This document shows positions 7,430 through 41,200 of a stretch of DNA of 48,030 nucleotides, piece after piece. The DNA is from a virus, in the IMG/VR virus record IMGVR_UViG_3300035698_009141, positions 1 through 48,030 of that record, one strand, 5' to 3'. The notes below the pieces were generated by a model. It had not been told where the DNA came from and did not search any database. It worked only from the letters and a program-made list of their open reading frames with translations. The first letter of the stretch is position 1; each line of letters opens with the position of its first letter. The position numbers and the translations under genes are program-made.

Positions 7430-7478
7430 CTTTTTATCTCCTTGTAAATAATAATACTAACCAATACACTTATACAAC

Positions 7479-7507
7479 TATATACCATACCAATTACATA
7501 GAGTCAA
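7479..7507 (-). promoter_or_regulatory. Sigma70-type promoter for the leftward packaging operon
   Basis: On the minus strand: TTGACT, 17-base spacer, TATATA. Transcription would start near 7472, about 40 bases before the first gene of the 7.43-0 kb operon. Seen directly in sequence; activity is inferred. Confidence 0.65.
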
Positions 7508-7674
7508 TAGTATATAATTGTTTGGTACAATTTCGTGTTTTAATCCCCGCTTAAAATACTGCGACACAGACTTTTTTGGCTAATGCAGCGGTCTGGAAAA
7601 AAAAATGGTTATGATCTTGTATACCCTACCCTGGCGCGGCTTTACACCGTTCGTAATATTATTCAATGTTTTCC

Positions 7675-7707
7675 AAATATTACATATAGCCTGTCTTATT
7701 ATAATAC
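7675..7707 (+). repeat. 33-base direct repeat, copy 1 (promoter-like)
   Basis: AAATATTACATATAGCCTG followed by a TATAAT box; the second copy is at 7943-7975 with a few changes. Both contain TATTAC, a 16-base gap, then TATAAT, so they may be duplicated weak rightward promoters. Confidence 0.55.
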
Positions 7708-7942
7708 CCGTTTTTGCCGGTTTTACCTGTTTTCCACCTGCCCGGATTCGATATCCTGCCCGGATTAAAACAAAATCAATTTTTCCCACCCTGGTATCAA
7801 TCAATTATTTTTTTCCCTGCCTATTCCCGCATGATATTTTTTGGAGCTGGCAACCATGATTTTTTAAAATTGTTTTCGAGCTGGTATTTTTTGCATGGAT
7901 TATTTTTCTATGGATTATTTTTTTTGCTGCCAGGATAAAACA

Positions 7943-7975
7943 AAATATTACATATGGCCTGTGCTTATATAATAT
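7943..7975 (+). repeat. 33-base direct repeat, copy 2 (promoter-like)
   Basis: Second copy of the block at 7675-7707: AAATATTACATATGGCCTG then a TATAAT box with the same 16-base spacing from TATTAC. Lies about 105 bases ahead of the main rightward promoter. Confidence 0.55.
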
Positions 7976-8077
7976 TTTGCCTTGTTATCAGCTCGTTTTT
8001 TATATCCTTGTTTGAGCAGCTATATAATAAGGTATAAAATAAATATAAATATTATTATCTTTTTTTAATAAAAAGAC

Positions 8078-8105
8078 TTGCAATATACTTTTTTTGGCGT
8101 ATATT
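8078..8105 (+). promoter_or_regulatory. Rightward promoter 1 with operator-like palindrome
   Basis: TTGCAA, 16-base spacer, TATATT. Inside it lies the dyad ATATAC-N10-GTATAT (8083-8104). The same promoter and dyad recur at 12202-12229, followed by a similar ATTAATAAT-rich leader. It heads the 8.15-11.34 kb operon. A DNA-binding protein sitting on the dyad would block polymerase (inference). Confidence 0.7.
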
Positions 8106-8147
8106 TAATTTATGAATAATATTAATAATAATAAAAAGGGAGCAACT

Positions 8148-8792: not shown

Positions 8793-9395
8793 ATGGAAAA
8801 ATATCAAAAAATAAATAGAATTATGACATACCTTGACAAGAAAAATATTGATTTTGATTATTATGATAGTCAATGCAATTTCGGATCTGAAAACAGTGAA
8901 AAGCCTTTAATATGTTCTAATTGGAATAAAGTATCGGATAAAATGGTAGATTATATCGAATCAATTATAGAAACTCACTGGAATGATGAAGTTACACGTT
9001 GTGGGTGCTGTAATGGTGCCATTTTGACAACCCCGTCCTATCATGGCGACCTGCCGGAGTATGTTATATTAGATTGCGATATAACCTGTAAAGATTGCAT
9101 TCTTGATGATGAAAGTATCCAGGATGAAATAATAGATCAATATAAAAACCAGACAAACAAGGCTATCATGCCATGGTTTTTTGATATCATTGAAAAACAA
9201 GGTTATGTCTGTTATTCACCAGATGAGTATTGCCAGATCTTTGAGACCGGCTTCCATCACGGCCAGAATGATAACCCAAAAGATATTGCAGAGGATATCA
9301 AAAAAAACCTACCAGATCATGATTACATATTTAAAATTGATAGTGCAGGACAGTTTGATATCCAATGGAGTGTATTTATTAAAAAACAAGAATAG
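8793..9395 (+). CDS. Hypothetical protein with two CxxC knuckles, 200 aa
   Basis: The largest protein of the rightward cluster. Central TRCGCCNGA and ITCKDCILDD could hold one zinc. The rest is acidic and rich in Asp and Tyr. The ATG follows AAGGGAGAATC. No family recognised. Confidence 0.75.
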   Translation: MEKYQKINRIMTYLDKKNIDFDYYDSQCNFGSENSEKPLICSNWNKVSDKMVDYIESIIETHWNDEVTRCGCCNGAILTTPSYHGDLPEYVILDCDITCKDCILDDESIQDEIIDQYKNQTNKAIMPWFFDIIEKQGYVCYSPDEYCQIFETGFHHGQNDNPKDIAEDIKKNLPDHDYIFKIDSAGQFDIQWSVFIKKQE

Positions 9396-10609: not shown

Positions 10610-10888
10610 ATGAAAAATCATGAGATCGAAGACCAGTTTACACGTGTCAATAGTGACGTTAACGGCAATCCACGATATGCAATCCATTTTTTGAATTGTG
10701 AACCAGCAGCATGGGTAAACTATGATATGACATTGCATGAAAGGTATTTAAAAGTTTGCAAACTTATGAATTCAATAGGGGGGCGCAAATTCCACAACAA
10801 GCAATATGGCGGTGGTATTGTATTTCAAAGTTATAGCCTGCCGGATACATGGGGCCATATAGAGCGCGTAAAGAATCAGATAGAATAA
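10610..10888 (+). CDS. Hypothetical protein, 92 aa
   Basis: Starts MKNHEIEDQFTRVNSDVNGNPRY. Preceded by the recurring leader CCATAACAAAGGAATTAAAAAC, which includes the ribosome site. Followed by the best copy of the intergenic hairpin element. Unknown function. Confidence 0.65.
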   Translation: MKNHEIEDQFTRVNSDVNGNPRYAIHFLNCEPAAWVNYDMTLHERYLKVCKLMNSIGGRKFHNKQYGGGIVFQSYSLPDTWGHIERVKNQIE

Positions 10889-11838: not shown

Positions 11839-11918
11839 GCCAGCTCAAAAACAAAATGGATCAATATCAATGCCATTTCCAGGTCAAAAATCAATCGGAT
11901 AGGTTCGCGCATGGTCCG

Positions 11919-12180
11919 GGCTATGGTTTCTAGTTTTTGTAATGGCTTTTCAGATGGTTTCTAAAATTGACTATGGCTATCGCTACGGTTTCTAGAATTT
12001 GATATGCCGTTTGGTACGGTTTTTAAAATCCGCATGGCTGATAATTTTTATATGCAAACTCGGTACGGTTTTTAATTTTGAAAGGATCATTGGATGGTTG
12101 ATAAAATTTGTCGGATGGTTTCTAGTTTTTCAAAAAATATCGGATGGTTCACGATTTTTGGCATGGTTCGAAAAAATAAT
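11919..12180 (+). repeat. Phased array of about ten short asymmetric repeats
   Basis: Ten copies of roughly (A/G)(T/C)GGTTTCTAAAATTG. The GG pairs stand at 11925, 11956, 11987, 12018, 12036, 12067, 12096, 12117, 12146 and 12165, so steps are 31, 31, 31, 18, 31, 29, 21, 29 and 19 bases, close to two or three helical turns. All recognised copies lie on the + strand. The array fills the gene-free stretch 11839-12200 and ends just before promoter 2. It resembles iterons or clustered operator sites. Confidence 0.8.
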
Positions 12181-12201
12181 TTATTTTATTTAAAAAAAGG
12201 C

Positions 12202-12229
12202 TTGACATATACTTTAAAAGGCGTATATT
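12202..12229 (+). promoter_or_regulatory. Rightward promoter 2 with operator-like palindrome
   Basis: TTGACA, 16-base spacer, TATATT; the dyad ATATAC-N10-GTATAT lies at 12207-12228, matching the one at 8083-8104 with the same GGC next to its right arm. Drives the second rightward operon beginning at 12285. Confidence 0.75.
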
Positions 12230-12284
12230 CAACCTATGCAACATATTAATAATTATAATAACATTTAATTTAAGGGGAATCACA

Positions 12285-12701
12285 ATGAAACAAAAAGAAT
12301 TAATCGAATCAAGTAACATCACGGCAAAGCTTATCAGATCCACAGTTCAACAATTTGGTGGATGGGAATCTTTTCAAGAATCTGCCCAGGACGTTTCAAC
12401 CCATGGCATTGATGGTGGTTATGGTGCCTTTATTTATTATTCCGATACAGTCCCATTTTTTAAACGTAACAAAAAAGAAATTATGGAGCTGGCAAATGAT
12501 CAGGCTGAAGAATTCGGCCAAGGAACACTTGAAATGATCAATGGGTTTGGCTGCATGGAATCCCTTGACTTGACCATTGATGAACTTGCCAGGGCTATTT
12601 ATTCCGGCAAGGGTGATCTGACTACAAATATTTTTAATTGCTTGGCCTGGTATGCTGGTGAAGAAGTTTGCCGGTCTTATTGTGATCTGATTGAAGCTTA
12701 A
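12285..12701 (+). CDS. Hypothetical phage protein, 138 aa
   Basis: Middle segment GGYGAFIYYSDTVPFFKRNKKEI resembles phage proteins with an IYYxDTxxFFxxNxxxI motif whose function is unknown. AAGGGGAATCAC precedes the ATG. First gene after promoter 2, so likely an early product. Confidence 0.75.
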   Translation: MKQKELIESSNITAKLIRSTVQQFGGWESFQESAQDVSTHGIDGGYGAFIYYSDTVPFFKRNKKEIMELANDQAEEFGQGTLEMINGFGCMESLDLTIDELARAIYSGKGDLTTNIFNCLAWYAGEEVCRSYCDLIEA

Positions 12702-12718
12702 ACCCATATGTCACCTTA

Positions 12719-12768
12719 TATGGTTTTTGAAATTTACTAAGGCAGGGCGGATGGTTTTTTAAAATTAG
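12719..12768 (+). repeat. Repeat pair, 31-base spacing
   Basis: TATGGTTTTTGAAATTT and GGATGGTTTTTTAAAATT, GG positions 12724 and 12755. Same family as the 11.92 kb array. The second copy runs into the ribosome site of the next gene. Confidence 0.7.
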
Positions 12769-12779
12769 GGAGAATTTAC

Positions 12780-13103
12780 ATGGGGACTAAAATTTACACA
12801 AGCGAAGAAATTTTAAACAGCGATGATCTTTACGACTTGCAAGAAATGGCAAGCTCCGGCATACCTATCAAATACCAAATGACTAAAGGTGAGATTTTTT
12901 GGGTTAAATTTATCACCGATAAATATTGTGTCGCTGATTATATAACGGATAATTCAAGGTTTTTTGTTTTGACAATAGATGATATTGAAGCAATGTCAAA
13001 GGCTCTGGATGATGATTGCAAAGACTTTGGCAAGGCGGTTATGTTATCGGATGAAACAGCACTCCAAAAAATATTCTTCTGGCTCTATCAAGAATCAGAA
13101 TAA
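12780..13103 (+). CDS. Hypothetical protein, 107 aa
   Basis: Acidic protein starting MGTKIYTSEEILNSDD; AGGGAGAATTTAC precedes. The middle part (KGEIFWVKFITDKYCVADYI) looks like beta strands. Unknown function. Confidence 0.7.
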   Translation: MGTKIYTSEEILNSDDLYDLQEMASSGIPIKYQMTKGEIFWVKFITDKYCVADYITDNSRFFVLTIDDIEAMSKALDDDCKDFGKAVMLSDETALQKIFFWLYQESE

Positions 13104-13128: not shown

Positions 13129-13365
13129 ATGGAAAATTTTAAGGCAGTTAAGGAAAGTAACATTGATTCTATAATTCTTAAAAGTGTTGATGAATTTGAA
13201 ACCTGGGCAGACGGTAATTGTGTCAGTCAGGAAGATATTTCAATTGTTATTGAAAATATTGGTATTAAAAATATTGTAATTTATACCTTTTCAGATGGTT
13301 CGGGTATTAAACGAGTTGAGGATCTTATTTATTTTGTCAAAAGTGTTGAGCCCTGGATAGTCTAA
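13129..13365 (+). CDS. Hypothetical acidic protein, 78 aa
   Basis: Starts MENFKAVKESNIDSIILKSV; strongly acidic. The leader AAACCATAACAAAAGGAG carries the ribosome site. Small acidic early proteins are often host-protein inhibitors, but nothing specific is seen. Confidence 0.65.
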   Translation: MENFKAVKESNIDSIILKSVDEFETWADGNCVSQEDISIVIENIGIKNIVIYTFSDGSGIKRVEDLIYFVKSVEPWIV

Positions 13366-13388
13366 AATATTTTTGCTATGCCACCATA

Positions 13389-13437
13389 GACGGTTTTTGA
13401 AATCCGCTATGGTTGGTTAGATGGTTTTTTAAAATTA
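13389..13437 (+). repeat. Repeat group, 31-base outer spacing
   Basis: GACGGTTTTTGAAATCC (GG 13392), an intermediate TATGGTTGG (13411) and GATGGTTTTTTAAAATT (13423). Outer copies are 31 bases apart. Confidence 0.7.
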
Positions 13438-13455
13438 GCTAGAGGAGATTTAGAA

Positions 13456-13779
13456 ATGGAAAAGTTAACGGAAAAACAAACGGAAAAAGATTTTCTATTA
13501 TGTGCCATTGATATTATATGTTGCCAAAGGGAATATGAGACAAAGAAATATCCAAGCGGCGGATATTACAGATCAGATGTTGAAATTGAAACAAAAGAAA
13601 GATGGACAGGAACTAAAACAGAAATCTTTGAAAGGTTTTATCACACAAACAATAAATTAAAATATTGTAATGGCAGTCATTGTTTGTTTGCCAATTTGAA
13701 TGACAGGCTTGACTATAATAAATTCTTTATAAAATACCACACCATAGCTAATTATTATGGCAATGGGGTTGTGGATTGA
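13456..13779 (+). CDS. Hypothetical protein, 107 aa
   Basis: Starts MEKLTEKQTEKDFLLCAIDIICC and has scattered Cys and Tyr residues. AGAGGAGATT precedes. No family recognised. Confidence 0.7.
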   Translation: MEKLTEKQTEKDFLLCAIDIICCQREYETKKYPSGGYYRSDVEIETKERWTGTKTEIFERFYHTNNKLKYCNGSHCLFANLNDRLDYNKFFIKYHTIANYYGNGVVD

Positions 13780-13803: not shown

Positions 13804-14031
13804 ATGGCAGATCAAACAGTCGGCTACAAAATAACCAGGGAAACATCAAAATACAATAAATATATGAAATGGCATTTGGAATATTTCAGGGATAATAATT
13901 CCGGCCTTTCTTCTAACTGGTTCAAAACACAAAAAGAAGCGATACAAAATGTAGAACGGGCTATTTACAGGGGCAAAAAGGGATTTCCGATTGGTGATAG
14001 GTTAAGCTTTACTGATTATATAGCACTATAA
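13804..14031 (+). CDS. Hypothetical protein, 75 aa
   Basis: Basic, aromatic-rich (MADQTVGYKITRETSKYNKY...). The segment SNWFKTQKEAIQNVERAIY resembles the small alpha/beta repeat of proteins with a W(F)xTxxEAxxxxxRxxx helix, but the family is not certain. AAAGGAGAA precedes the start. Confidence 0.65.
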   Translation: MADQTVGYKITRETSKYNKYMKWHLEYFRDNNSGLSSNWFKTQKEAIQNVERAIYRGKKGFPIGDRLSFTDYIAL

Positions 14032-14080
14032 TACGGTTGGTAAAATTACAAGGCAGTATAGACGGTTGATAAAATTTTAA
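14032..14080 (+). repeat. Repeat pair, 29-base spacing
   Basis: TACGGTTGGTAAAATT (GG 14035) and GACGGTTGATAAAATTTT (GG 14064). Same family as the 11.92 kb array. Confidence 0.7.
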
Positions 14081-14091
14081 AGGATAATACC

Positions 14092-14328
14092 ATGAAAATA
14101 AATAAAAATACAATAGCGCTAAGAGCCCCATCAATTTTTACATCAAGAAACGGGAAAGAAGATTGCACTATCTGTAAACAAAAGAGATCGTATGGGTTCA
14201 CTCATAGTGACGGCAAAAGATATGCGAGCGTTTATAAAATAGCTTGTGAATCGGGAGAAGTCCTGCGGGGAACTGGTATTTCACCAGTACCAATGGGCTT
14301 TCTAAAAGATAACTGCCTTATAGATTAA
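14092..14328 (+). CDS. Hypothetical basic protein, 78 aa
   Basis: Contains EDCTICKQKRSYGF, one CxxC knuckle, and ends PMGFLKDNCLID. Ribosome site AAAGGAT. Unknown function. Confidence 0.65.
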   Translation: MKINKNTIALRAPSIFTSRNGKEDCTICKQKRSYGFTHSDGKRYASVYKIACESGEVLRGTGISPVPMGFLKDNCLID

Positions 14329-14359: not shown

Positions 14360-14581
14360 ATGGGAAAATTTGGTGAAATTTATATTGAATTGCAGGAAAG
14401 AAACATCACGTTACCGCATACCCTGGAATATAAAGAATATTGTGCTACATTATATCCGGATATGGGAATAGAGTTTCTTTATGCTGACGAGGTAGACGGA
14501 TACCGGCAAGCAAAATCGTTTCAAGAATTTGAAGAAATGGCAATCGCTTGGATGAAAACAGGGGAACTTCCAAAAGAATAA
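14360..14581 (+). CDS. Hypothetical protein, paralogue A, 73 aa
   Basis: Starts MGKFGEIYIELQERNITLPH. Its C-terminal two thirds (KEYCATLYPDMGIEFLYADE, VDGYRQAKSFQEFEEMAI) align with the protein at 14716-14940, so the pair arose by duplication. AAAGGAGAAATAAGC precedes. Unknown function. Confidence 0.7.
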   Translation: MGKFGEIYIELQERNITLPHTLEYKEYCATLYPDMGIEFLYADEVDGYRQAKSFQEFEEMAIAWMKTGELPKE

Positions 14582-14594
14582 CCCTATGTCACAC

Positions 14595-14692
14595 TCGATG
14601 GTTTTTGAAATTGCTTATAGCTGCGTAGATGGTCAATAATTTTGGCATGGTTAATATTTTTCTATGCACCTTCAGATGGTTTTTTATTTTTA
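14595..14692 (+). repeat. Repeat group of four
   Basis: GG positions 14600, 14631, 14649 and 14678 (steps 31, 18, 29): GATGGTTTTTGAAATT, GATGGTCAATAATTTT, CATGGTTAATATTTTT, GATGGTTTTTTATTTTT. It fills the 134-base gap between the two paralogues. Confidence 0.7.
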
Positions 14693-14715
14693 ATCTTTAA
14701 TCGAAAGGAATAACC

Positions 14716-14940
14716 ATGGTAAAATACACAGAGGATGAAATAAAATTACACGGGACCAAAACGCCCTATACAATTGGTAGCAAGAAATATCGTGCCATAT
14801 TATATTCATATGGAACAATAGAATTTTTATGCCTTGGTAAGGTAAAAGGATATAGAAAAGTAGAATCATTCGGAGTATTTAAAGAAGTTGCTCTTGATTG
14901 GATTATAGCAGGAATTTTACCGACAGAACAAACCGTTTAA
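14716..14940 (+). CDS. Hypothetical protein, paralogue B, 74 aa
   Basis: Starts MVKYTEDEIKLHGTKTPY; SKKYRAILYSYGTIEFLCLG and VKGYRKVESFGVFKEVALDW match paralogue A at 14360-14581 position by position. More basic than A, which suggests the copies have diverged in role. GAAAGGAATAACC precedes. Confidence 0.7.
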   Translation: MVKYTEDEIKLHGTKTPYTIGSKKYRAILYSYGTIEFLCLGKVKGYRKVESFGVFKEVALDWIIAGILPTEQTV

Positions 14941-14957: not shown

Positions 14958-15167
14958 ATGAACAAAACGAAAATTAATGATGTCCCAATTCAGCCCGAAA
15001 AAACCTTTGCCAGATTTATCAAGGCAATCAGAAAACAAAAAAACTGGAACACAAAGCAGCTTGGGGAATGCCTGAACATCTCATCCAGGACCATTGAATC
15101 ATGGGAACAAGGCAGACGGCATCCAAAGGGTATCTTTGAGCTTATTGAACTGGCTAAGGAGTTATAA
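14958..15167 (+). CDS. Helix-turn-helix (XRE-type) DNA-binding protein
   Basis: 69 residues; TFARFIKAIRKQKNW then TKQLGECLNISSRTIESWEQ form an XRE/lambda-repressor-like helix-turn-helix with the typical S-xx-T-I-x-x-W-E-x-G-R recognition helix region. Only the DNA-binding domain is present. AAGGAGAAT precedes. It is the obvious candidate in this cluster to bind the 22-bp palindromes or the dispersed repeats (inference). Confidence 0.85.
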   Translation: MNKTKINDVPIQPEKTFARFIKAIRKQKNWNTKQLGECLNISSRTIESWEQGRRHPKGIFELIELAKEL

Positions 15168-15175
15168 GACGGGTC

Positions 15176-15222
15176 ATACGGTTGATAATTTTATATGACA
15201 CACCGGATGGTTTTTTAAATTT
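15176..15222 (+). repeat. Repeat pair, 29-base spacing
   Basis: TACGGTTGATAATTTT (GG 15180) and GGATGGTTTTTTAAATTTT (GG 15209). Same family as the 11.92 kb array, again directly before a ribosome site. Confidence 0.7.
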
Positions 15223-15238
15223 TAACAAGGAGAAGAAT

Positions 15239-15619
15239 ATGAAACTTACATCAGAAAACGTAACAGAGATTTTTATGAATTGTTTATTTAATGAAGATGA
15301 AAACAAATCCGATCCTGAAATAGTGGAAGGAATCCAAACAAGCTTTGGTTTTCATAAAGGCCGAGTGGCTGAACATACAAAAGAAATCTCAGAAATGTTG
15401 GCGCAGCTACCACTAGAATTTCAAGAAGAAAGTGGTGGTGGCATGTCTTTTTTGAATGCATGTAATGATTCTGACGGCGAACAATGGACAGGAATGCATA
15501 ATATAATGGATCAACTCTTTGTACTTGGCCAAGCATGTGGAAAGGTAAAGCCATTAATGCCCCGTGAAATGTGGAAAGTGTTGCCGGGCGGAATGCCGTA
15601 TTATATGGTTTTGTCTTAA
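15239..15619 (+). CDS. Conserved phage protein, 126 aa
   Basis: Starts MKLTSENVTEIFMNCLF. The patterns EIVEGIQTSFGFHKGRV, GGGMSFLNACNDSDGEQWTG, LFVLGQACGK and MWKVLPGGMPYY belong to a protein family widespread in phages of diverse hosts; its function is unknown. Start chosen at the ATG after AAGGAGAAGAAT. Confidence 0.8.
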   Translation: MKLTSENVTEIFMNCLFNEDENKSDPEIVEGIQTSFGFHKGRVAEHTKEISEMLAQLPLEFQEESGGGMSFLNACNDSDGEQWTGMHNIMDQLFVLGQACGKVKPLMPREMWKVLPGGMPYYMVLS

Positions 15620-15652: not shown

Positions 15653-15832
15653 ATGGAAAAATCATTCAGCACCACACAAAACGTAGGCAAGGCAAAATAC
15701 CTCGTATCATTCACGGATGGAATTCAGACCCACAAAGACGGCAGCAGCTTTTTCGATATAAGGATCTTCAATAACAAAAGGAAATTAAACGCCTTTGAGA
15801 AAGGGTTGCGGTTTGCTGGTTACAAGGGTTAA
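15653..15832 (+). CDS. Small conserved phage protein, 59 aa
   Basis: KYLVSFTDGIQTHKDGSSFF and DIRIFNNKRKLNAFEKGL match a small phage protein type (KYxVSxxDGxxTHKDGSxFxDIxIFxxKxxL) of unknown role. GGGGAGAG precedes. Last gene of the rightward cluster. Confidence 0.75.
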   Translation: MEKSFSTTQNVGKAKYLVSFTDGIQTHKDGSSFFDIRIFNNKRKLNAFEKGLRFAGYKG

Positions 15833-15839
15833 TGCGTAT

Positions 15840-15897
15840 GCTGCCTGCTATGGTTGGTATTTTGCTATGGCAGGCAGGATGGTTTCCGATTTTTGGC
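15840..15897 (+). repeat. Stem-loop and repeat pair at the end of the rightward cluster
   Basis: CTGCCTGC (15841) and GCAGGCAG (15870) can pair over a loop that contains one repeat (GG 15852); a further copy is at 15869 and a final one, GATGGTTTCCGATTTTT, at 15881 (29 bases from the first). It could act as a transcription end point despite the weak U-tract. Confidence 0.5.
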
Positions 15898-15967
15898 CTA
15901 TTTTCCAAGCTGCTGATATTGCTACGAAAAAGACCAAATGTTCTTTAGGCTTATGACTTATTATTTT

Positions 15968-16219
15968 TTAATCATTAACAGTCAAATCTTGTGTAACATA
16001 TTGCAAACTTCTAATTGCTTCAGCTTTTGTTGTTTGCAATACGCAGCCCATATAAAAACCACTTCTGCCAGTTGTAATCTCTCTATCAACCGGAACAAAT
16101 GTCGGAGGAACTACGCTTGAATATTTCACTATTTTGGAAAGTACAACAACCATGTCATCTTGAAATACAAATGCTCCAACTGAAACCCAATTTATTTTGT
16201 ACGGATCTTCTATTTCCAT
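15968..16219 (-). CDS. Hypothetical protein, 83 aa
   Basis: Beta-rich protein starting MEIEDPYKINWVSVGAFVFQ. GGAGATTAA precedes the ATG and lies at the stop of the IS-interrupted membrane gene, so the two formed one operon. It converges with the rightward cluster. Unknown function. Confidence 0.65.
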   Translation of the reverse strand: MEIEDPYKINWVSVGAFVFQDDMVVVLSKIVKYSSVVPPTFVPVDREITTGRSGFYMGCVLQTTKAEAIRSLQYVTQDLTVND

Positions 16220-16393
16220 TTAATCTCCTATGTTCTCTTCGATGGTTTTTGATTTTCGATGTCCTTTTTCGTCATCGCACAATAAATCAAATGCAACGGA
16301 ATTGTGATGAATAGGCCAAAAAACCCAAACAAAAATGCTACAAAATGAAGGAAACAAAGTGACACTCCACGGGGCAAGCCACGTGGCTTCTGT

Positions 16394-17554
16394 TCAGTAA
16401 TCTGAACATTCTTTTTCTTGTTTCAACGACGGTTCTATTGAACCATCTTCACAAGCGTTAATTCCCGTATGCCCTACGGTACTGAGACCTACATTTCTAA
16501 TATTAAAAGATGCGTTCAAATCCCTATCTATAGATATTCCGCAATCAGGACAATTAAACACTCTTTTGTGTAATGGCATTTCATGAATACAACCACAATT
16601 TGAGCATGTCTTGGAACTTGGGAAAAACCTATCAATTTTGATATAGTGTTTAAATCTCCATCTGCATTTGTATTCGAGTTGCCTATTAAACTCTGACCAC
16701 GATACATCTCCAATGGATTTAGCAAGATAATGATTTTTCATCATTGTCTTAATATTTAGAGTTTCTACGGCTATCCCATCATATTTCTTGGCTATTGAAT
16801 CAGATGTTTTATGTAGAAAATCTTTACGGGCATCTCTTATCTTATTTTGAACTTTCCTAACCTTCAATCTCTGCTTAAATCTGTTTTTACTCCCTTTTTG
16901 TTTTTTACTTAATTTTCTTTGTTTTTTTGCTAATTTCTTTTCATATTTCTTAGTATGCTTAGGGTTGTTGACTATAGTCCCATCTGACAATGTAACAAAT
17001 TCTTTTATTCCAACATCACAACCTACGATACTATTAAATTTCTTTTCTTTCTCAATTATTTCATATTCACATAAAACAGAACAATACCACTTACTACCAT
17101 CTTGTGATATTGTAATTGATTTTGGTTTTCCTTTCATCGATCGATGCTTTACCCATTTTACTTCACCTATTTTAGGTATGAAAACGAATCCTTTTCCCAA
17201 TCTCCATGTTTGAGGACAAGCAAAGCCATCATTCAACAACATTTTCTTTTTGAAAGACGGAAATCCCTTTTCTTTCTTAAAAGAATCCTTCAAAGCTCTA
17301 TCAAATTGCCGTAAAACCATCTGTAATGATTGCGAAAAAGATTCTTTGAGAAATGGGTATTCTTCTTTGAGTTTTGGTAAAGAAACAGCCAATTCGTGAT
17401 AAAATTTAAACTTGCCGGTCTCTTTATAGCAACCTTGATTTACCTCAAGCGCATAGTTCCATAAAAATCGTGTATTACCACCACATTGAAGCAAGAGTTT
17501 CTCTTGCTCTTCGGAAGGTAAAATTCGATATTTATATCCTCTGCGCACTAACAT
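16394..17554 (-). CDS. tnpB: RNA-guided endonuclease TnpB
   Basis: 386 residues, full length for the family. N-terminal RGYKYRILPSEEQ; RuvC-like residues in VGCDVGIKEF (D180), VETLNIK (E264) and DRDLNAS (343-349); zinc finger CSNC (317-320) and CPDC (335-338). TnpB cleaves DNA with an RNA made from the element's right end and helps the transposon persist at its site. The ATG at 17554 lies one base after the tnpA stop with AAAAGGA ahead. All key residues are present, so it is probably active. Confidence 0.95.
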   Translation of the reverse strand: MLVRRGYKYRILPSEEQEKLLLQCGGNTRFLWNYALEVNQGCYKETGKFKFYHELAVSLPKLKEEYPFLKESFSQSLQMVLRQFDRALKDSFKKEKGFPSFKKKMLLNDGFACPQTWRLGKGFVFIPKIGEVKWVKHRSMKGKPKSITISQDGSKWYCSVLCEYEIIEKEKKFNSIVGCDVGIKEFVTLSDGTIVNNPKHTKKYEKKLAKKQRKLSKKQKGSKNRFKQRLKVRKVQNKIRDARKDFLHKTSDSIAKKYDGIAVETLNIKTMMKNHYLAKSIGDVSWSEFNRQLEYKCRWRFKHYIKIDRFFPSSKTCSNCGCIHEMPLHKRVFNCPDCGISIDRDLNASFNIRNVGLSTVGHTGINACEDGSIEPSLKQEKECSDY

Positions 17555-17555
17555 T

Positions 17556-17960
17556 CTATTTTCCTTTTTGTTCTGCAATATACTTCTTAATAGTTTCAGC
17601 AGAGACATTACCTATCGTTGATATAAATTTCCCTACCGACCAAAAAGAACCACATCTACCATAAAATGATTTCAACTTTGGATATTTTTTAAACAATTTA
17701 ATGGCTGTAATGCTTTTAAAAACTCTTACTATGTCCATAGGTGCAACAGTTGGCTTTGCCCCAACAAATATATGAATATGGTCTGGCATCACTTCCATTT
17801 GTATTATCTCGTAACCATATTTATTCGCCACATCTAACAATATTTCTTTTAAACTAATTTCAACATTCCCCTTCAAAACAGAATACCGAAATTTTGGGCA
17901 AAATATTATATGATATTGACAGAGGTATTTACAATGTGATGTTGACTTATATTCACTCAT
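17556..17960 (-). CDS. tnpA: IS200-type Y1 transposase TnpA
   Basis: 134 residues, the normal length. HUH motif in MPDHIHIF (H61, H63) and catalytic Tyr at residue 127 in AETIKKYI. It excises and inserts the single-stranded element next to a short target. The ATG overlaps the end of the RHH gene by 8 bases, so its translation is coupled to that regulator. Intact. Confidence 0.95.
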   Translation of the reverse strand: MSEYKSTSHCKYLCQYHIIFCPKFRYSVLKGNVEISLKEILLDVANKYGYEIIQMEVMPDHIHIFVGAKPTVAPMDIVRVFKSITAIKLFKKYPKLKSFYGRCGSFWSVGKFISTIGNVSAETIKKYIAEQKGK

Positions 17961-18114
17961 TTTTATTTTCTAATCCATATTTTTCTTTAATCGCTCTTCT
18001 AATTAAATCAAGATATGTCAAAGTAATTTCCTCTTCAATAGAAAACACTCTGGCAAGTCTTTTCATTTCCTCTTTCCATTCTTTTGGCAACGCCATGTTT
18101 ATCTGTGTATTCAT
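17953..18114 (-). CDS. Ribbon-helix-helix regulator inside the IS605-type element, 53 aa
   Basis: MNTQINMALPKEWKEEMKRL gives the N-terminal beta strand and first helix of an RHH (CopG/Arc-like) fold, followed by a second helix (TLTYLDLIRRAIKEKYG). AGGAGATACAA precedes the ATG. It is the first gene after the element's promoter, whose -10/-35 region carries two copies of ATATTGTA-like words, so it probably represses its own operon and thus tnpA (inference). Confidence 0.75.
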   Translation of the reverse strand: MNTQINMALPKEWKEEMKRLARVFSIEEEITLTYLDLIRRAIKEKYGLENKNE

Positions 18115-18165: not shown

Positions 18166-18267
18166 GCTCTTTTTAAATTATTTCACCAATTCATCACCGC
18201 AGCAAGCAGACGGGGTTTTCTTGGCAGCGCGCTATAATACGTGTGCCATGGTTACTCTCCTTTGTCA

Positions 18268-18318
18268 TTTAATGTGGTTTTTAAAATTACAAATCATGCC
18301 CGATGGTTCATGTTTTTT
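18268..18318 (+). repeat. Repeat pair, 29-base spacing, inside the leftward block
   Basis: ATGTGGTTTTTAAAATT (GG 18276) and CGATGGTTCATGTTTTTT (GG 18305). Same family and same absolute orientation as in the rightward cluster although the genes here run leftward. Confidence 0.6.
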
Positions 18319-18514
18319 CAGGCGCTTCGTTTTTCTTACTGATACCAGCACCTATGCCCAACAATACTAACCCAGGCAGCATAAAGCACACCATGTTGAA
18401 TATAACACCTACCATCATGAATCCTTGAGATGATGTCGCCCATGGCATTAAAGCCACGTTACCCAAACCAATTATTCCCCAGGCTCCCCCGACTATCTTT
18501 AATAAAGCTCCCAT
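18308..18514 (-). CDS. Small membrane protein, 68 aa
   Basis: Two transmembrane segments (about residues 5-28 and 31-56) and a charged C-terminal tail KKNEAPEKT. AGGAGAAACAC precedes the ATG. It lies one gene upstream of the IS-split membrane gene in the original operon. Unknown role. Confidence 0.65.
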   Translation of the reverse strand: MGALLKIVGGAWGIIGLGNVALMPWATSSQGFMMVGVIFNMVCFMLPGLVLLGIGAGISKKNEAPEKT

Positions 18515-18532
18515 GTGTTTCTCCTATGTTAT

Positions 18533-18580
18533 GTGGTACGGTTTTTGATTTTTCCTATGCCATGTCCTATGGTTTTTTAT
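18533..18580 (+). repeat. Repeat pair, 31-base spacing
   Basis: TACGGTTTTTGATTTTT (GG 18540) and TATGGTTTTTTATTTTA (GG 18571), upstream of the leftward membrane gene. Last clear pair of the family. Confidence 0.65.
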
Positions 18581-18581
18581 T

Positions 18582-18737
18582 TTAGCTCATGTCGAAATCT
18601 ATTTTTGTGATGACAGTCGAATCTAACATATCCCCACGTTCTGTATTATTAAGCCTTCCTGGAAATCGTATATCATAAACTTCTGCCCCGGTATTCGCTT
18701 CAAATTTACCGACTGCATCCATGATTTCTCTTGCCAT
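18582..18737 (-). CDS. Hypothetical protein, 51 aa
   Basis: MAREIMDAVGKFEANTG... then YDIRFPGRLNN. It begins 32 bases inside the end of the upstream gene and its ribosome site is weak, so the start is uncertain. Composition looks coding. Function unknown. Confidence 0.5.
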   Translation of the reverse strand: MAREIMDAVGKFEANTGAEVYDIRFPGRLNNTERGDMLDSTVITKIDFDMS

Positions 18738-34124: not shown

Positions 34125-34257
34125 GGTATCTCCTATATCTAGTATTATAATATATTATATATATATTTTGGTTATTGTATGTAGTTGGTAAGGGTTAAGG
34201 GTAAGGATAAGGATAAGGTAAAGGGGCATGTGCTGTCTGCATGCTGATAGTATGCTG

Positions 34258-34641
34258 TCAGCATGTTTTGTCTTGTTTATGTTTGGTTTTCCATCTAACT
34301 TCAGCCGCTTTTTTTGCCTGTTCACTACGTTCTTTTGCCTTACAAGCATATCCTTGATGGTCGCCCCAATCATGTATTTCATAGCACCCATTCCCATTTT
34401 GTTTTATAAAATTACATTTAACCATTGCCTCAACGAAAACGATTGGATCACCATCCCATTCGCCAGAAAAAGCGATATCTTCTTCGTCCCATCCTGATAA
34501 TATTCCCTCAGGATTAGATTGTGCAACAGATATCCATAAATCAATTAAATGTCCAGTGGCACCAGGTCCTAACAATTTTTCTAATTTTTTACGTTTCCTG
34601 TGACCCTTAAAGGAAGTTGCAAGTCTGATATCTTTATTCAT
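34258..34641 (-). CDS. Phage replisome-organizer / initiator-like protein, possibly cut short by TGA
   Basis: DIRLATSFKGHRKRKKLEKL, GPGATGHLIDLWISVA, NPEGILSGWDEEDIAF, YEIHDWGDHQGYACKAKERS and KKAAEVRWK define the N-terminal winged-helix module of DnaD-like phage initiators. The frame ends at TGA 34258-34260 after KTC, but goes on in the same frame for 20 codons (QHTISMQTAHAPLPYPYPYP) to 34195. Relatives of this type end in just such a Met/Ala then Pro-repeat tail, so the stop may be a mutation. Confidence 0.8.
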   Translation of the reverse strand: MNKDIRLATSFKGHRKRKKLEKLLGPGATGHLIDLWISVAQSNPEGILSGWDEEDIAFSGEWDGDPIVFVEAMVKCNFIKQNGNGCYEIHDWGDHQGYACKAKERSEQAKKAAEVRWKTKHKQDKTC

Positions 34642-34642
34642 T

Positions 34643-34837
34643 TTATTTCGCGGCAAGATACTTATTGATAGCAGCAACCAACACATCAGGCATGGCTTTT
34701 ATATATCCGTGTATCTGGTGATATATGGTAGAATAATTTGGACTTTCAGGAGATTCGATATAGTTTGAATAGAACCATTTAATACCACGTTGTTCTGTTT
34801 TTAATTTTTTAAGCAGCTTACCTTTAAGGTCTTCCAT
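34643..34837 (-). CDS. Hypothetical protein, 64 aa
   Basis: MEDLKGKLLKKLKTEQRGIK..., basic N-terminus then IHGYIKAMPDVLVAAINKYL. It precedes the initiator-like gene by one base and may act with it. No family recognised. Confidence 0.65.
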   Translation of the reverse strand: MEDLKGKLLKKLKTEQRGIKWFYSNYIESPESPNYSTIYHQIHGYIKAMPDVLVAAINKYLAAK

Positions 34838-41076: not shown

Positions 41077-41200
41077 AATAAGATCCTTTGACTTATTCCT
41101 TATTTGAAGTGTGTGGAGGGGCAAGTAAGGATGCTTGCTTTTCAACCGCTAAGTCTATCCACACAACAACGGTATACCTTTTAAAGTAAGATAGCAAGCT

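Follow-up and report, generated by a model that had tools for sequence, protein, structure and literature searches.

A strand-fixed site family in the gene block of promoter P2

A family of 29 sites, and one weak further site, was found in IMG/VR virus record IMGVR_UViG_3300035698_009141, all of them bearing one asymmetric motif on the + strand and all lying in non-coding gaps. The sites are confined to the gaps of the gene block headed by a promoter that we call P2, and to those just beyond it. Their arrangement, a dense array directly upstream of P2 followed by dispersed, mostly paired copies, is most likely that of a dispersed network of asymmetric operators, comparable to the C1 operators of phage P1 or the stoperators of mycobacteriophages. 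The whole record of 48,030 bases was analysed and is referred to here as the window; it is linear, lacks terminal repeats and represents a fragment.

The dispersed copies were located by scanning the window, at a threshold of 10 bits, with a weight matrix built from the ten array copies alone; the array itself was left out of the counts. Outside the array the + strand gave 22 matches, 16 of which are non-coding, and the − strand gave eight, one of which is non-coding. All 16 non-coding + strand matches fall within 12.7–18.6 kb. Shuffled non-coding DNA yielded a mean of 1.5 matches and a maximum of 4 (100 shuffles). Since a matrix made from the array recovers held-out sites in this excess (16 against 1.5 expected), the array is part of a phage-wide site family. 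With weaker partners at the right spacing included, 19 dispersed sites form nine elements, A to I (Table 1), all of which lie beyond the coordinates covered by the original prediction. The sites beyond the 16 threshold matches were admitted through their spacing, a choice that in part determines both the total of 19 and the 29/31 rule given below.

Neighbouring sites less than 60 bp apart, those of the array included, are spaced by 31 (n = 8), 29 (n = 7), 18 (n = 2), 19 and 21 bp, and never by 30 bp. When all copies are aligned, a second conserved part becomes apparent, an ATG that starts 13 bases before the Y of the YGGTT core in 11 of the 19 dispersed sites and four of the ten array sites (at most three at any other offset). 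The full site, TATG-N9-RYGGTTTnTRAWWTT, is asymmetric and about 28 bp long; its two half-sites are in direct orientation, 12 bp apart, and neighbours at a spacing of 29 or 31 bp nearly abut. No member of the family was found in the gaps of the gene block downstream of a second promoter, P1 (8.1–11.8 kb), or in the gaps of the main − strand gene block.

Table 1. Coordinates of the array, promoter P2, elements A to I and neighbouring genes in the window
Feature	Position	Strand	Description
Dense array	11909–12180	+	ten sites and a weak eleventh at 11910
Promoter P2 and leader	12174–12261	+	strong sigma-70-type; TTGACA 12202–12207, TATATT 12224–12229
DUF7222 family gene	12285–12701	+	first gene of the P2 block; E = 4.3e-13
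Element A	12704–12770	+	doublet 12721/12752 (31 bp), before genes 12780–13103 and 13129–13365
Element B	13374–13440	+	doublet 13391/13422 (31 bp), before genes 13456–13779 and 13804–14031
Element C	14020–14082	+	doublet 14034/14063 (29 bp), before genes 14092–14328 and 14360–14581
Element D	14584–14695	+	four sites 14599, 14630, 14648, 14677 (31, 18, 29 bp), before genes 14716–14940 and 14958–15167
HTH_3 (Cro/C1-type) small protein	14958–15167	+	69 aa; E = 1e-5; candidate binding protein
Element E	15164–15226	+	doublet 15179/15208 (29 bp), before genes 15239–15619 and 15653–15832
Element F	15836–15898	+	doublet 15851/15880 (29 bp), between convergent gene ends (15832 +, 15968 −)
Element G	16228–16261	+	single site 16243, just upstream of − gene 15968–16219
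IS200/IS605-type element	16394–18114		between elements G and H; TnpB 16394–17554, TnpA 17556–17960, small gene 17953–18114 beside
Element H	18261–18322	+	doublet 18275/18304 (29 bp), beyond the IS200/IS605 element, upstream of a very short − reading frame
Element I	18525–18588	+	doublet 18539/18570 (31 bp), just upstream of − ORF 18308–18514

The dense array

The Y positions of the array (11924, 11955, 11986, 12017, 12035, 12066, 12095, 12116, 12145 and 12164) reproduce exactly the steps of 31, 31, 31, 18, 31, 29, 21, 29 and 19 bases that had been reported for ten copies on one strand. Their core had been given as YGGTT, which is the case for nine of the ten, the copy at 12035 reading TGGCT. 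In 2000 dinucleotide shuffles of 11839–12284, YGGTT occurred 1.6 times on average and at most seven times, and AYGGTT 0.47 times on average and at most three times, against nine observed in each case; the copy number thus withstands the comparison with shuffled sequence that had been proposed as a check. The array is the densest 262-bp stretch of the window for YGGTT, both strands considered, and Tandem Repeats Finder assigns it a period of 31 bp, as expected of tandem direct repeats of a fixed unit. The stretch was rightly described as otherwise empty, in that it appears to be non-coding (the longest ORF there has a codon score of −10 bits), and as lying before a promoter, whose TTGACA and TATATT boxes are separated by 16 bp (12202–12229; 11 of 12 matches). 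The original prediction further placed the steps near whole numbers of helical turns. A good fit to this (R = 0.85) is obtained only by forcing a helical repeat of 10.0 bp; with 10.5 bp per turn, R of the phase vector is 0.28 (p about 0.47), and helical phasing is unsupported. The array is better described as a series of nearly abutting sites with a period of 31 or 29 bp.

Twin promoters

P2 is a diverged copy of P1, the core of which lies at 8078–8105. In an alignment the similar segments are 8047–8137 and 12174–12261; the similarity starts where the array ends, and the array is present at P2 only. Perfect matches to TTGnnATATACTTTnnnnGGCGTATATT occur in the window at P1 and P2 alone, and in both an inverted repeat, ATATAC-N10-GTATAT (12207–12228 in P2), spans the core promoter and is possibly an operator for a dimeric repressor. 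The strongest indirect case for a regulatory role of the array is that, of two copies of one promoter, only the one at the head of the site-bearing block carries it. The near-duplicate pair, with the array at one member only, also offers a natural comparison for the effect of the array. Upstream of P1, the stretch 7430–8060 is a long, AT-rich, non-coding region with repeats of its own, AATATTACATATRGCC (7676, 7944) and ATGGATTATTTTT (7895, 7910), which are unlike the array at P2; a search of 7.4–8.1 kb for array-type sites returned one moderate match only, at 7911.

Gene layout and elements A to I

Gene calls were made with a simple script. Small genes occupy the + strand from 8.1 to 15.8 kb, and the − strand carries genes for a terminase small subunit, an SbcC-like protein, a RecT-like annealing protein, a DNA helicase, a primase-like protein and a replication-initiator-like protein. 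The RecT-like gene is adjoined by an int-alpA RNA (RF02996; Rfam match of 39.9 bits, 41097–41165, − strand). Within the stretch of small genes, 10610–10888 encodes a Phage_TreK family protein (a Staphylococcus phage terminal-repeat-encoded protein), which suggests an early host-takeover region. Genome scans with helicase and TnpB queries returned no clear host.

Each of elements A to E stands before two small + strand genes; 28–39 bases separate the start codon from the second site of the pair or, in D, from the fourth site. Element D is flanked on both sides by paralogous genes (41–42% identity). The sites of G and I stay on the + strand beside − strand genes, and those of H beside a very short − strand reading frame, so that site orientation goes with the genome or with transcription from P2 and not with the adjacent gene. 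Codon use backs the − gene at 15968–16219, which scores +15.7 bits (competing + strand ORFs, −15.9 and −13.7), and the score of the − ORF at 18308–18514 is weaker (4.4 bits). Near H, at about 18180–18250 on the − strand, a reading frame opens with MAHVL, meets a TAG and continues in frame for 17 codons (RAAKKTPSACCGDELVK); it could be a decayed short gene or a product of chance.

Relatives and conservation

Nucleotide searches of phage records, near and distant, with the array region gave no match, and a scan of viral contigs with three motif patterns gave isolated matches and no clusters. No relatives were found either when viral contigs were queried with 8793–9395, 15239–15619 and the paralogue pair of element D. 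The only two close relatives found, G001 and G002 (helicases 69–71% identical), are devoid of the array and of motif clusters, and also of homologues of the P2 gene block, and do not constitute a fair test of conservation. Relatives of the DUF7222 gene (48–52%) have no array upstream. Overall, the collections searched, which may omit near relatives, yielded no relative that carries these sites. In G001, direct repeats of GAGCGATTCGTT occur near a primase-like gene (L057:7269–7463), and these are possibly an iteron origin.

Proposed function and alternatives

The reading that we prefer, and to which we would give roughly even chances, is that one phage protein would bind the array and the doublets sequence-specifically and control how the P2 block is transcribed. 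The putative protein would read the asymmetric site of about 28 bp as TATG, then RATGGTT 12 bp on, and then an AT-rich tail. Many molecules of the protein would load on the tandem sites of the array, directly upstream of P2, and more would sit on the doublets in the gene gaps of the block; the latter could halt or delay RNA polymerase arriving from P2, or bar reading from either side. Initiation, elongation or both would then be repressed in the P2 block. We infer from the arrangement of the sites that a protein binds them, that a single protein does so, and that the outcome is repression or a transcription roadblock. If this is true, a single phage protein would coordinate a block of small, mostly uncharacterised genes, perhaps for early host takeover, via about 30 sites.

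The HTH protein is a candidate only, on the ground that it lies in the P2 block. Cro/C1-type proteins usually bind inverted repeats, so the HTH protein would suit the promoter palindrome more than the asymmetric sites. Among the proteins scanned in this fragment, which include some but not all of its small ORFs, neither a repressor of the phage P1 C1, L5 or MrpR type nor an integrase was recognised; a temperate life style is therefore unproven. Two features of the layout speak against operators: element F lies downstream of both flanking genes, and the sites of G, H and I keep their strand irrespective of gene direction, unlike stoperators, unless transcripts from P2 read through that far.

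Because the sites stand at module boundaries whatever the gene direction, and always on one strand, they could alternatively serve in recombination, the one-orientation sites delimiting exchangeable modules (a doublet and two small genes) that site-specific or homologous exchange between direct repeats would add, remove or duplicate. The exactly two genes after each of A to E and the paralogues on either side of the doubled element D would be consistent with such exchange, as would the ability of doublets B and F to form hairpins (z of −2.0 and −2.8). Hairpins are not general, however, as A, D, E and I gave z of −0.7 to 0.8 and no consensus structure was found across nine doublets. The only recombinase recognised nearby in the window is the IS200/IS605 transposase, the elements are without the common flanking DNA that recent exchange would predict, and the ten sites before a promoter are left unexplained; we consider recombination unlikely. 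Less probable still is a combined reading, in which the strand-fixed sites would both mark exchangeable two-gene modules and regulate them, one putative protein recognising the boundary doublets whatever the gene direction; if it were true, newly inserted modules would fall under control at once. An integron-like cassette array fits poorly, as structured inverted-repeat sites (attC) are not present at each cassette, with no consensus structure and strong folds in two of six elements. The lack of a consensus fold also weighs on an RNA-level element in the P2 transcript, acting in leader regulation, processing or antitermination. The sites of A to E would lie in a leader, directly before the ribosome binding site, and two doublets fold well, but the doublet gaps have no Rfam match, and with strong folds in two of six elements (B and F) an RNA element was rejected as a general explanation. 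The array is moreover upstream of P2, the sites of G, H and I are in antisense orientation to the genes beside them, and we regard an RNA element as very improbable.

The position of the second site of A to E relative to the start codon of the two-gene unit would also suit phage-specific promoters or activator sites, each doublet driving the next two genes via a phage RNA polymerase, a sigma-like factor or an activator bound to direct half-sites. Other phages are known to have early regions of small genes served by numerous promoters, and the doublets coincide with no strong sigma-70-like promoter on the + strand (no match above 9 of 12 in the doublet gaps). Yet F precedes no + strand gene, the sites of G, H and I face away from the genes beside them, the array is upstream of an ordinary strong sigma-70-type promoter, and the proteins scanned include no recognised phage RNA polymerase or sigma factor, all of which makes promoters an improbable explanation. 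An iteron-type origin, or plasmid-style maintenance, appears similarly doubtful. An initiator would here bind the tandem sites and open the AT-rich DNA near 12180, with the dispersed doublets acting in handcuffing or titration. The tandem direct repeats with T/A-rich stretches in non-coding DNA, with ten sites packed into about 260 bp and an AT-rich segment after them (12170–12200), would fit an origin. The copies are, however, dispersed through nine other gaps over about 6 kb instead of being gathered at one locus. A GC-skew change at the array, proposed as a check for an origin, is absent at 12 kb, the sign flips being at about 8, 16 and 46 kb, together with gene strand. No initiator gene was recognised beside the array; homologues of a replication initiator (at 34.3 kb), a primase and a helicase are found at 31.7–34.7 kb, some 20 kb away, with repeats of their own at 34.19–34.28 kb. 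Dispersal, GC skew and the remote replication genes thus disfavour one half of the original prediction, "an iteron origin or a cooperative operator array"; the operator half fits the dispersed family, with binding as a prediction. The short CCTTA-type repeats at 34187–34280, directly after the replication-initiator-like gene (34258–34686, −), are a better candidate for an origin than the 12-kb array.

Comparison with known systems

Iteron origins of theta plasmids and some phages likewise have tandem direct repeats beside AT-rich DNA. They differ from the present family in that its sites are dispersed in gene gaps, with no adjacent initiator recognised and no change in GC skew.

Phage P1 has 22 dispersed asymmetric C1 operators with the 17-bp consensus ATTGCTCTAATAAATTT (PMC8546580). 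In the half of the phage P1 record covered (AF234172), these operators lie at or near sigma-70 promoters, and Omat is on the strand opposite mat. As in the present family, they are asymmetric and dispersed, and their strand need not follow the controlled gene, as Omat illustrates. The doublets described here, by contrast, lie in gaps without a sigma-70 promoter, and tandem doublets or a ten-site array are not described for the phage P1 operators in the portion of the literature covered. The sequences differ too, ATTGCTCTAATAAATTT being unmatched here at up to three mismatches, and no C1 homologue was recognised among the proteins scanned.

L5-type mycobacteriophages carry more than 20 asymmetric sites, at promoters and in short intergenic gaps, that are proposed to stop initiation or elongation (PMC9283540, PMC6550527). 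These stoperators share with the present sites their asymmetry, their location at promoters and in short gaps, a bias to one orientation and a single genome-specific consensus (PMC9283540, PMC6550527). They are 13 bp long and their orientation follows transcription, whereas the sites here are about 28 bp long, form doublets 29 or 31 bp apart and have a fixed strand. Judged by gene direction, the orientation rule of stoperators does not apply here, since the array and A to E agree with it, G to I are reversed and F lies between convergent ends; it could hold if transcripts from P2 read through.

In SPbeta, the master repressor MrpR binds repeated SPBRE elements in various intergenic regions (PMC10516654). 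One repeated element in several intergenic gaps is also what is seen here, a likeness in repetition and location, and no protein with the tyrosine-recombinase fold of MrpR was recognised. By analogy, the family may work like the phage P1, L5 or SPbeta systems, and its doublet spacing of 29 or 31 bp, together with its fixed strand, sets it apart from the known dispersed operator systems compared.
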